Shown: positions 37,482 to 42,946 of the stretch, piece by piece
Layout of the letters: each line of letters starts with the position of its first letter
Numbering within the stretch: position 1 is the first letter of the stretch
DNA from: Paracoccaceae bacterium
GTDB lineage: Bacteria; Pseudomonadota; Alphaproteobacteria; Rhodobacterales; Rhodobacteraceae
Direction: 5' to 3'
NCBI GenBank assembly: GCA_947476475.1
Contig: CANJQT010000007.1
Span: forward strand, 1-64,000
Length of the DNA: 64,000 bases
Position numbers and translations under genes: made by a program
Notes under the pieces: generated by a model
Databases searched by the model: none
Told to the model about the DNA's origin: nothing
Seen by the model: only the letters and a program-made list of their open reading frames with translations

Positions 37482-40019
37482 TCAGGCGAGCGTCCGCTCG
37501 ATCTCTTCGCGCTCAAAGATCTCGATGACGTCATTCGGGCGCACATCATCATAGTTTTCAAAGGCCATGCCGCATTCCTGACCGGACTGCACTTCCTTGA
37601 CCTCGTCCTTGAATCTCTTGAGAGTTTTCAATGTTCCCTCGTGGACCACGACGTTGTCGCGCAGCAGGCGCACACCAGCCGACCGGCGGGCAATACCTTC
37701 GGTCACCAGACAGCCCGCGACCTTGCCCACGTTCGACACCTTGAAGACTTCAAGGACTTTGGCGTAGCCGATGAAGGTTTCGCGCACTTCGGCTTTCAGC
37801 AGGCCAGACGCGGCGGCTTTGATATCGTCAACCAGATCGTAGATAATCGAGTAATAGCGGATCTCGACGCCCTTCTGGTTGGCTGACGCGCGCGCCGAAG
37901 CATTGGCGCGGACGTTGAAGCCGATGACCGGAGCTTTTGAGGCTTCGGCAAGGCTGATATCCGATTCCGTGATGGCGCCGACACCGTAATGCAGCACGCG
38001 GACGCGCACTTCGTCGTTGCCGATTTTTTCCATAGCTTGAACAATCGCCTCGGCAGAACCCTGCACGTCGGCTTTCACCACGATCGGCAGTTCGGCCACG
38101 CTCTTGTCGGCCTTGGCCTTGGCCATCAGCTGTTCCATCGTGGTCGCGGCACCGGCTGCGGCGCGCTTGTCCTTCGCGGCTTTCTCGCGGTAGGTGGCGA
38201 TCTCGCGGGCCTGGGCTTCGGTTTCGACCACGTTCAGCACGTCACCGGCTTCGGGCGTGCCGTTCAGGCCCAGAACCTCGACCGGAACCGAGGGACCAGC
38301 CTCTGCAATGCGCTCGCCCTTGTCGTTGATCAGGGCGCGGACCTTGCCCCACTGTTCGCCGACCACGAAGATGTCACCCTGACGCAGGGTGCCGTTCTGG
38401 ACCAGAACCGTGGCAACCGGGCCGCGGCCCACATCAAGTTTGGCTTCGATCACAGCGCCAGAGGCGGCGCGGGTCGGATTGGCGCGCAGTTCAAGGATTT
38501 CGGCCTGAAGCGCGATGTTTTCCAGAAGCTTGTCGATCCCCTGGCCAGTCTTGGCCGAGACTTCCACATCCAGAACGTCACCGGACATGGCTTCGACGAC
38601 CACTTCGTGCTGCAGAAGATCGGTGCGGACCTTTTGCGGATTGGCGTCATACTTGTCGACCTTGTTGATCGCCACGATCATCGGCACCTTTGCCGCTTTC
38701 GCATGGGCAATCGCTTCGATCGTTTGCGGCATCACGGCATCATCCGCCGCAACCACCAGAACCACAATGTCAGTCACATGCGCGCCACGGGCCCGCATCG
38801 AGGTGAAGGCAGCGTGGCCGGGGGTGTCAAGGAAGGTCAGAACCGAACCGTTGTCGGTTGTCACCTGATAGGCCCCGATATGCTGGGTAATGCCACCGGC
38901 TTCGCCCGACACAACAGAGGTCTTGCGGATCGCATCCAGAAGCGAGGTCTTGCCGTGGTCGACGTGGCCCATGATCGTGACGATCGGCGGGCGCGGCACC
39001 AGATCTTCGTCGCGGTCCTGAACCGAGTCGATCACCTGTTCCACGTCGGCATCCGACACGCGCACGGCCTTGTGGCCGAATTCTTCGATCACCAGTTCGG
39101 CGGTGTCGGCGTCGATGGCCTGGTTCATCGTGACCATCATGCCCATCTTCATCAGCGACTTGACCACATCGGCGGCGCGTTCGGCCATCCGGTTTGCAAG
39201 TTCGGATACGACGATGGTTTCGGGCAGCTGCACGTCGCGCACCTGCTTTTCAGGCTTCTGGCTGAAGCCCATCGCCTTCTGACGGGCTTTTTCCTGCTTG
39301 CGCTTCATTGCGGCCATCGACCGCTGGCGGCCACCTTCGCCGTTCAGCGCATCGTTCAGCGAAAGTTTGCCGGTGCGGCGGCTGTCGTCGACCTTGGCCT
39401 TGCCGGTGCGATCATTCGCCGGGCTGCGGTCGTCGCGTTCGCGGTCGGTCTTGCGCGGGCCGACAGCGGCGACGCCCTTGGTTTCCGCACGCGCGGCGGC
39501 AGCTTCGGCTGCGGCCGGATCAATCGGTGCCGCAGGCGCGGCTTTCGAAAGCGGCTTGGTGCGCAGCACGTCTTGCTTGCGGGCCTCGCGGGTTTCGGTG
39601 TCGCGCGCCTTCTTGGCCTCTTCTTCGGCCTTCAGGCGCAACGCTTCCTGATGCTCACGCTCTTCGCGTTCCTTCGCCTCGATCTCGGCGCGGCGGCGGT
39701 CGCGTTCTTCTTCGCGGGCCTTGTCTTCGATGATCCGGCGGGCCGCATCTTCGACTTCACGAATCTTGGCGGCCTGAAGCGCCTTCAGACGGCGTTCCAT
39801 TTCCGCATCGGAAATCCCGGCGGGGCGCTTGGACGGATCGCCCAAGGCAGGGTTGGTGCTGCCGCCCGCTGCCGGGGCGCCCGGCTTCGGCACGACAACG
39901 CGTTTGCGTTTCGTCTCAACAATAACCGCCTTGGTGCGCCCATGGCTGAAGCTCTGCTTCACCTGTCCGGGGCGTCCGCCGCCGAGGCCGAGGGGTTTTT
40001 TGCCATCCGTATCGCTCAT
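37482..40019 (-). CDS. infB: translation initiation factor IF-2
   Basis: [60 protein letters not shown]. Confidence 0.98.
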
Positions 40020-40645
40020 GCCGGTCTCAGATCTTTCCCGGCGGATTGTCCGCCGTCCGCTTGCCGCAAGCCATTCAACTTTGCGGCCTCCTCTACAACA
40101 CGCTTCGTGAGTCCGCCAGCGGCAAGCGCCGCATGAACCACAGAATCGCGTCCAAATGCCATTCCCAGCTCGTTTGCCGTAAGACAACCGAACCAGCGCC
40201 CGCCCTCGGGCGTCCAGAGTTTACCCTTGCCGCGCTCGGATCCGTCCGATGCCTGCAGCAGAACCTTGGCACGCCCGTCGGACAGCCAGTCCTTCACTTT
40301 TTCATATCCGCAGACGGCATAGCCCGCCTTGCGGTCCAGCGAAATCAGTTCAACCACGCGCTTGGCCAGTCCGGCTTCCACCAGATCGACCAGCCCCGGC
40401 GGCACGGTCGCGGGCGCTTTTGCGGCGCGCGCGAACAGGCCCTTGGTGGCCGCCTTTTCGATGGCGGCCCGGTCAGCCGTCACCCAGATGCCCCGACCGG
40501 GCAACTTGGCCGCCAGATCGGGGAAGACCACGCCATCAGGCGACAGGACAAAGCGGATGAGGCCAGCCTTCGGCTGCACCTCGCCCGTTACGACGCAGCG
40601 CCGTTCCGGGTCTTCCTGCATCTTGTCCGCACCGCCGCGTGTCAT
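40016..40645 (-). CDS. YlxR family (DUF448) RNA-binding protein with L7Ae-like C-terminal domain
   Basis: [51 protein letters not shown]; between nusA and infB. Confidence 0.9.
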
Positions 40646-42249
40646 CAGGCATCAGCCTCTTCGTCTTCGGCCTCTGCCTCGGTCTCCAGTTCTGCCGGAT
40701 CGACCCAGCCCAGCTGAATCCGCGCCGTCATCACCAGATGCTGGGCTTCTTCAAGGCTCATTTCGAACTTCTCAAGCAGACCTTCGTCCTTGACACGTTC
40801 GCCGTTCACCGTGGTCCAGCCGCCGGCCAGTTCCCAGTCGGCGCAGGTGGCGAAGTCTTCCAGCGTTTTCACGCCGTCTTTGGCCAGGGCTTCCAGCATC
40901 TGCGGGGTAAGCCCATCGAAGTTCACCAGGCTGTCTTCGACACCCAGTGCACGGGCGGCGTCAAGGGCGGCCTTGTTCTGCGCTTCCAGATATTCGCGGG
41001 CGCGGGTCTGAAGTTCGGCCGCAGTGCTGTCATCGACGCCTTCGATGGTCAGAAGTTCGTCCTGATCCACATAGGCGACTTCTTCCAGATTGGCGAAGCC
41101 TTCGGACACCAGAAGCTGGGCGAAGAATTCGTCCAGATCCAGTGCTTCCATGAACAGCTTGGTGCGTTCGGCGAATTCGGCCTGACGGCGCTCGCTTTCA
41201 TCGGCTTCGGTCATGATGTCGATATCAAGGCCGGTCAGCTGGCTGGCAAGGCGCACGTTCTGGCCACGGCGACCGATGGCCAGCGACAGCTGCCCATCCG
41301 GCACCACGACTTCGATGCGGTTGTTTTCTTCGTCGATAACCACCTTCGACACTTCGGCAGGCTGAAGCGCGTTCACCAGGAAGGTGGCCGGGTCTTCGTT
41401 CCACGGAATGATGTCGATCTTTTCGCCCTGAAGCTCGTTCACAACCGCCTGAACGCGGCTGCCGCGCATGCCGACGCAGGCACCGACCGGGTCGATGGAG
41501 CTGTCATAGGAAATGACGCCGATCTTGGCGCGCGAACCGGGGTCGCGGGCCACGGCCTTGATCACGATGATGCCGTCATAGATTTCCGGCACTTCCATCT
41601 TGAACAGTTCGGCCATGAACTGCGGATCGGTGCGCGACAGGAAGACCTGCGGCCCACGCGCTTCGCGGCGCACGTCCTTGATATAGGCGCGGATCCGGTC
41701 GTTCGGGCGATAGCTTTCGCGGCCGATCTTTTCGGTGCGGCGCAGGATGGCTTCGCCACGGCCGATATCGACGATGATGTTGCCGTATTCCTCGCGCTTG
41801 ACGACGCCGTTGATGATCGTGCCCTTGCGGTCCTTGAATTCCTCGAACTGGCGGTCGCGTTCAGCTTCGCGGACCTTCTGCAGAATCACCTGCTTGGCCG
41901 ACTGGGCGGCGATGCGGCCCAGTTCCACCGGGGGAACCTCGTCCACGATCACGTCGCCGACCGAAGGCGCATCCAGGAACTGCTTGGCCTGCGCCACTGT
42001 CAGCTGCGCCTGGTAATTCTCGACCGCGTCATCTTCAACAACCGTGCGCACACGGGTGAAGGTGGCGCGACCGGTCTTGCGGTCGATCGCCACGCGGATA
42101 TCCATTTCCGAGCCATAGCGCGACTTCGCTGCGCGAGCGAGGCTCTCCTCCATCGCCTGGATCACCAGATCCGGGTCGATCATCTTTTCGCGCGCAACCG
42201 CCTCGGCGGTCTGCAAAAGCTCAAGCTGGTTGGCTGAAGTAATCGCCAT
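40645..42249 (-). CDS. nusA: transcription termination/antitermination factor NusA
   Basis: [86 protein letters not shown]. Confidence 0.98.
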
Positions 42250-42250
42250 C

Positions 42251-42820
42251 TTACTCCTCCTCGGAAGTATCTTCTACGATGTCGTCAAACGCGGCTTCGT
42301 CGATGGCCTGAGTGGCCTTCTTCTGCCGCAGCATTTCAGTGATCAGTTCGTCGGTCAGGATCAGTTTCGCGTCGGCAAGCCAGTCGAATTTCAGGCCAAT
42401 GGTGCCTTCTTCGATTTCGATCAGAACCTCGTCGCCCTCTACGCCGCGCAAGAAGCCCTTGAAGCGCTTGCGCCCCTCGATCATCTCGCTGGTTTCGATC
42501 CGCACTTCGTAATCCGCCCAATGTTCGAAATCCTTGAGGCGGGTCAGGGGCCGGTCGATGCCGGGGCTGGACACTTCCAGATGATAGGCGTCGCCGATCG
42601 GGTCCTCGACATCGAGAACCGCGGAAACGGCGGTAGAGATCTTGCCGCAGTCGTCCACGTCGATGCCGCCTTCTGGGCGGTCGGCCATGATCTGCAACGT
42701 CTTGGTAAGTCCGCCCATCAGCCGGATTCGCACCAGTTCGAACCCCAGCCCTTCGATGGCAGGGGTGACAATTTCGGCAAGGCGACGGTCGATGGCGGTT
42801 TTGGCGATTAGATCAGTCAT
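42251..42820 (-). CDS. rimP: ribosome maturation factor RimP
   Basis: [58 protein letters not shown]. Confidence 0.95.
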
Positions 42821-42833
42821 GGTCAGGCTTGGT

Positions 42834-42864
42834 CCAAAAACAAAAAGCGGGCCAGAGGGCCCGC
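42834..42864 (-). terminator. intrinsic terminator in the rimP leader (candidate attenuator)
   Basis: Minus strand GCGGGCC-CTCT-GGCCCGC followed by TTTTTGTTTTT, ending 13 nt before the rimP ATG. Confidence 0.85.
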
Positions 42865-42917
42865 CGAACTTTCCGGTGGGCTGCGAGTTTGGACCCCGCA
42901 GCGCCTCTGTTGAGGGG

Positions 42918-42946
42918 GATATAGGGGAAAGGGGGCGGGGATGCAA
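42918..42946 (-). promoter_or_regulatory. candidate sigma-70 promoter for rimP-nusA-ylxR-infB
   Basis: Minus strand TTGCAT (42946-42941), 17-nt spacer, TATATC (42923-42918). Confidence 0.55.

Follow-up and report, generated by a model that had tools for sequence, protein, structure and literature searches.

The question raised by this locus is to which gene the terminator in front of rimP belongs and, if it belongs to rimP, what would decide between stopping at it and reading through. The window, by which we mean the whole stretch of 64,000 nucleotides analysed, has Frigidibacter and Defluviimonas as its nearest named relatives. The operon rimP-nusA-ylxR-infB given for it by an initial annotation is confirmed by the Pfam domains of its products:

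42254..42820, minus strand: rimP, 189 aa, first gene of the operon; Pfam RimP_N and DUF150_C
40645..42249, minus strand: nusA; Pfam NusA_N, KH_5 and others, with matches to solved NusA chains
40016..40645, minus strand: ylxR (DUF448); Pfam YlxR
37482..40022 (start approximate), minus strand: infB, encoding IF2; Pfam IF-2, IF2_N and others

The reading that we favour, and judge fairly probable, is that transcription of rimP-nusA-ylxR-infB is attenuated by the element before rimP, probably through negative feedback of NusA. All the elements named by the initial annotation sit at the coordinates it gave, including the rimP ATG at 42820; the gap from the U-tract to this ATG is 15 nt and not 13. 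No stop interrupts the rimP frame upstream as far as a TTG within the promoter (window 42251-42946, minus strand), and an automatic annotation might for this reason place the rimP start too early. The parts of the leader are the following:

42918..42946, minus strand: sigma-70-type promoter TTGCAT-N17-TATATC (TTGCAT at 42946-42941, TATATC at 42923-42918)
42903..42912, minus strand: leader 5' end CAACAGAGGC (CAACAGCGGC in most relatives), near-invariant in 99 held-out leaders
42909-42904, minus strand: CAGAGG, first half of the putative split antiterminator, able to pair with the terminator loop and showing matched changes elsewhere
42880..42902, minus strand: hairpin P2, GCTGCGGG (42902-42895) with CTCGCAGC (42887-42880), loop GTCCAAA
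42873..42879, minus strand: CCACCGG, with C57 and G58 in 99/99 and A55 in 96/99 held-out leaders; a spacer separates it from the terminator hairpin
42846..42865, minus strand: terminator hairpin GGCGGGCC-CTCT-GGCCCGCT, followed by the U-tract
42858-42853, minus strand: CCTCTG, partner of CAGAGG (42909-42904) in the predicted antiterminator state
42836..42846, minus strand: U-tract TTTTTGTTTTT, conserved in the family

The promoter-like TTGCAT-N17-TATATC was not flagged by a generic promoter scan of the window; it is nevertheless present as first described and conserved at fixed spacing, the TTGCA and TATAT columns being kept at equal distance in 129 aligned family loci. The transcription start would lie at about 42911, the A of CAACAG, and the conserved RNA, of which the transcript 5' end CAACAGCGG is one of the conserved parts, starts where the promoter spacing predicts it. 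A motif UCAAYAG at the leader 5' end resembles the boxC-like NusA site of M. tuberculosis; this reading was set aside, and the predicted start site would exclude the first bases of the motif. In six genomes (G000, G007, G054, G160, G244 and G249) neither a model nor a primer pattern located a 16S rRNA gene, probably because such genes had been masked or withheld.

The intrinsic terminator, GCGGGCC-CTCT-GGCCCGC with TTTTTGTTTTT ending at 42836, stands as first proposed: its exact pattern occurs once in the window against 0.10 expected, and the leader folds better than its shuffles (z -2.4), 3 of 200 of them doing as well. In the held-out leaders the stem is almost fixed (GGGC in 99/99, GCCC in 98/99), and so is the 5' side of the loop, where C, G and C are kept in 99, 91 and 90 of 99; the loop thus appears unusually conserved, more than a plain terminator would need. 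Upstream of it, the stem GCTGCG 42902-42897 / CGCAGC 42885-42880 was rightly recognised and is the covarying hairpin P2, whose pairs changed on both sides in 6/6 cases in the training set and in 5/6 in the held-out leaders, the alignment of the latter leaning to the model's structure because it was fitted to it, and the MAFFT alignment of the training set being free of such fitting. None of 500 shuffles attained the whole-structure covariation score, and versions slid along the alignment score far lower. The loop of P2 varies (UCCA, CUUCGG, GAAA and others), and the CCG of the neighbouring CCACCG has two possible partners, the 5' end (P1) and the CGG in the lower arm of the terminator.

To which gene, then, does this element belong? 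A covariance model built from 33 rimP-anchored family leaders (genus and family loci) recovered 99 of 100 further family loci with E below 1e-11, the one that it missed (L109) having a rearranged leader, and all 121 genomes of an order-level sample, which covers 59 genera and consists entirely of genomes of one family, with one strong copy per genome. The leader is present in Rhodobacter capsulatus and Paracoccus denitrificans, and no plasmid copy was found. The genes upstream of it include TspO, a polysaccharide deacetylase, RhuM, the bicarbonate transporter Sbt_1, a dehydroquinase, an IF-2B family protein and TerC, and at one locus (L014) a divergent EamA transporter; this variation indicates that the element belongs to rimP. 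The alternative that the initial annotation had itself raised, namely that the hairpin is the terminator of the upstream tspO, is hardly credible any longer: tspO does run in the same direction in the window, its end lying 40 nt upstream of the -35 box, but a promoter lies in between, and the changing synteny refutes it. It is also very improbable that the leader, once terminated, works in trans as a small RNA derived from the 5' UTR, with termination forming its 3' end. A hairpin followed by a terminator is the architecture of many sRNAs, and the best weak Rfam hit of the leader, which matches none of the families, is SorY, far below threshold; the conservation is however tied to rimP, with a single strong copy in each genome and a P2 loop that varies.

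Terminators before rimP are themselves familiar. The rimP-leader of Naville and Gautheret (2010, PMC2965389) is the most ubiquitous attenuator in their survey of bacteria; its general form is a GGGc...gCCC terminator alone before rimP-nusA-infB, with no larger element; no antiterminator was visible at most rimP leaders, and a protein such as NusA was proposed. The leader described here agrees with it in position, operon, GGGC...GCCC stem (GGGCC-CTCT-GGCCC in the window) and U-tract, having an intrinsic terminator in the 5' UTR of rimP-nusA-infB, a GGGc...gCCC stem and a U stretch. It differs in being more than a terminator, as the covariation of P2 and the conserved flanks indicate, the Rhodobacteraceae form adding a conserved 5' end, a covarying hairpin and a putative split antiterminator. 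Because PMC2965389 reports the absence of a larger element in most species, we regard the Rhodobacteraceae leader as a variant of the rimP-leader and not as excluded from it. The gammaproteobacterial rimP leader RF01770 is alike in its operon and in the termination/antitermination proposed for it; the comparison with it that had been suggested was run and gave no match in the window even at E 10 and none in the genome, the leader not reaching the gathering threshold of 47 bits, and in 14 control genomes RF01770 matched in E. coli only. In S. agalactiae the rimP-nusA-infB operon yields a short terminated RNA and a long transcript from one start site (PMC4448216), where control by NusA was proposed for S. 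agalactiae and E. coli; that leader terminates 31 nt after the start, and the Rhodobacteraceae one after about 75 nt with a hairpin upstream. In B. subtilis, NusA regulates its own gene by stimulating termination in the nusA leader (2016 work, as cited in PMC12288461). The two leaders share a terminator ahead of the nusA operon and likely the physiological logic. A split antiterminator is not known from the B. subtilis nusA leader. A literature search, with most subscription journals outside its range, found no paper on Rhodobacter rimP leaders or sRNAs or on a split-antiterminator form; the general rimP-leader is thus known, and the folding scheme that we propose appears in none of the libraries searched.

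What could compete with the terminator? The initial annotation had paired GCCCACCG (42881-42874) with CGGCGGGC (42866-42859) as an antiterminator. In the window this pairing exists, with 7 pairs and 1 mismatch, but it is not conserved in the family: among 32 distinct family leaders it is paired in 74.0% of cases against 73.3% in shuffled columns, and we rejected it as the family's antiterminator, its outer three pairs being broken in 10-18 of the 32. In the form seen in the window's group, the smaller, second half of an antiterminator comes close to this pairing. Of the three helices whose covariation the annotation had proposed to check, P2 covaries in the family, the terminator stem is near invariant and this pairing lacks support. 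The idea of mutually exclusive alternative pairings at the rimP leader survives through another helix, which appeared when RNAs ending before the 3' arm of the terminator were folded. The conserved antiterminator seems to consist of two halves bridged by P2: in the first, the 5' end (AGCGGC in most relatives) would pair with GCCGCU of the upper terminator arm and loop, and the second would join CGG in the lower arm to CCG from CCACCG. Eight bases of the consensus terminator, CGGGCCGC, match exactly the reverse complement of GCGGC joined to CCG. With an antiterminator split in this way it would be understandable that P2 drifts although its flanks and the terminator loop stay constant.

The two antiterminator helices show pairing in 95.6% and in 99.3% of the cells of alignment A2, the latter figure being that of columns 56-58 x 71-73, which are near invariant and so uninformative on covariation. 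As the antiterminator pairs hardly vary, the test lies in the variants, and the evidence rests on few clades. Of the 117 distinct combinations present in 250 leaders, 81 have five or more consecutive Watson-Crick pairs between the 5' end and the loop region; with the loop letters shuffled the figure is 18.4 +/- 3.6 of 117. Cognate pairs of 5' end and loop do better than swapped ones (0/500, and 0/2000 in another, deduplicated test), the advantage being borderline within the variant classes alone (112/2000). Matched variants occur in the window's group (CAGAGG:CCUCUG) and in another clade (CAACAG:CUGUUG), with ACAGG:CCUGU and ACAC:GUGU as single cases; CAGAGG or CCUCUG put together with the usual partner forms no more than three pairs. 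In L277-L281 the terminators have been rebuilt and CCGCUG facing CAGCGG has been kept. A tree-based test of independence of the 5' end and loop changes found too few independent pairs. GC-rich 5' arms pair nearly as often with shuffled upstream sequence (0.77 vs 0.67), and the probability of the terminator arm pairing upstream is a poor discriminator. The CAGAGG/CCUCUG leader is nearly identical in two RimP clades (L025 and L207 versus L001-L005), which suggests leader transfer or recombination, or convergence; it may reflect one event spread by transfer.

These matched changes bear directly on the view that the attenuator is recognised by a protein and involves no RNA switch, NusA or RimP reading the terminator stem, CAACAGCGG and CCACCG, and the complementarity being a by-product. 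Such recognition would agree with the proposal made in PMC2965389 and with the near invariance of the flanks and of GGGC/GCCC. It would agree also with the other alphaproteobacterial families (L248-L275, up to 350 nt before rimP searched), 22/28 of which have a GGGCC...GGCCC terminator before rimP (1.3 expected) and none of which gave an antiterminator signal. It leaves unexplained both the matched changes of 5' end and loop and the loop complement kept despite the remodelled terminators of L277-L281, and we hold it to be unlikely, though worth keeping in mind.

Our preferred reading, an RNA switch, is suggested by this comparison together with folding predictions, which are equilibrium (MFE) states and not kinetics. 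As the window transcript lengthens, its predicted MFE structure passes from P2 and its base to P2 with the split antiterminator (nt 55-64), and then to the terminator (from nt 65); this path from antiterminator to terminator was seen in the window and in one relative. In 247/249 leaders the 5' end pairs with the terminator region at some transcript length, the terminator first takes over as the MFE once a median of 5 nt of its own 3' arm is present (249 leaders), and in 59/249 the MFE at the U-tract retains the 5' pairing. The 5' pairing state is found in 116/120 real leaders and in 51-70/120 with shuffled 5' ends. When the 3' arm of the terminator is masked, the mean fold is 4.6 kcal/mol weaker than that of the full leader and 9.1 kcal/mol stronger than that of the 5' hairpin alone.

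In these predictions the conserved pairing is mutually exclusive with the terminator, L281 being the exception: its complement CCGCUG lies wholly inside the loop CCGCUGA, off the stem, and need not exclude the terminator. This case, and the fact that the complement always includes the loop, would favour a pseudoknot in which the 5' end pairs with the loop of an intact terminator and helps or hinders it with no exclusion. Most complements include stem bases, and loops of 3-5 nt would be too small to pair fully while closed, so that we consider a pseudoknot improbable.

In the switch that we propose instead, the polymerase would start at the leader promoter and make about 75 nt. P2 would fold first and bring the 5' end and the CCACCG segment together, and the emerging 5' arm and loop of the terminator would be captured by the 5' end (upper arm and loop) and by CCG (lower arm). 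Once the 3' arm emerges, the terminator hairpin would displace the antiterminator and transcription would stop 15 nt before the rimP start codon, the amount of readthrough depending on which of the two folds wins the race. NusA would be the most likely modulator: by promoting pausing and intrinsic termination it would bias the race to the terminator; high NusA would thus mean more termination, resulting in the proposed negative feedback. Control of readthrough in the cell and NusA as its signal are what we infer from this scheme, NusA being suggested by analogy with other bacteria. A bolder form of the proposal, possible but tentative, is that the switch is family-wide and its antiterminator divided into two halves, the first ten transcript nucleotides and a segment past a freely evolving hairpin, so that readthrough would hang on the exact start and on NusA.

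Such a switch would seem to decide between an early stop and transcription into genes of ribosome maturation, transcription and translation start. A compact conserved rimP-leader with a two-state predicted fold is at hand in Rhodobacter capsulatus and Paracoccus denitrificans, and its 75-nt template makes the setting of NusA, RimP and IF2 levels directly testable, the role of NusA at the rimP-leader being suspected from the proposal of PMC2965389.

Two further observations were made. In the window, the P2 loop GGUCCAAA has 8 bp of complementarity to the ribosome binding site UUUGGACC: GGTCCAAA (42895-42888, P2 loop region) is perfectly complementary to TTTGGACC (42838-42831), which runs from the last part of the U-tract into the putative ribosome binding site. 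As a family feature this pairing was rejected, 129 leaders giving no cognate preference and 104/200 shuffles being as low. Outside the family, a class-level search gave weak matches, in seven cases ahead of rimP, where the terminator alone is clearly shared; in 5 of the 22 other families that have the terminator, CCATAG occurs upstream of it (0.9 expected), and could perhaps be the counterpart of CAACAG.
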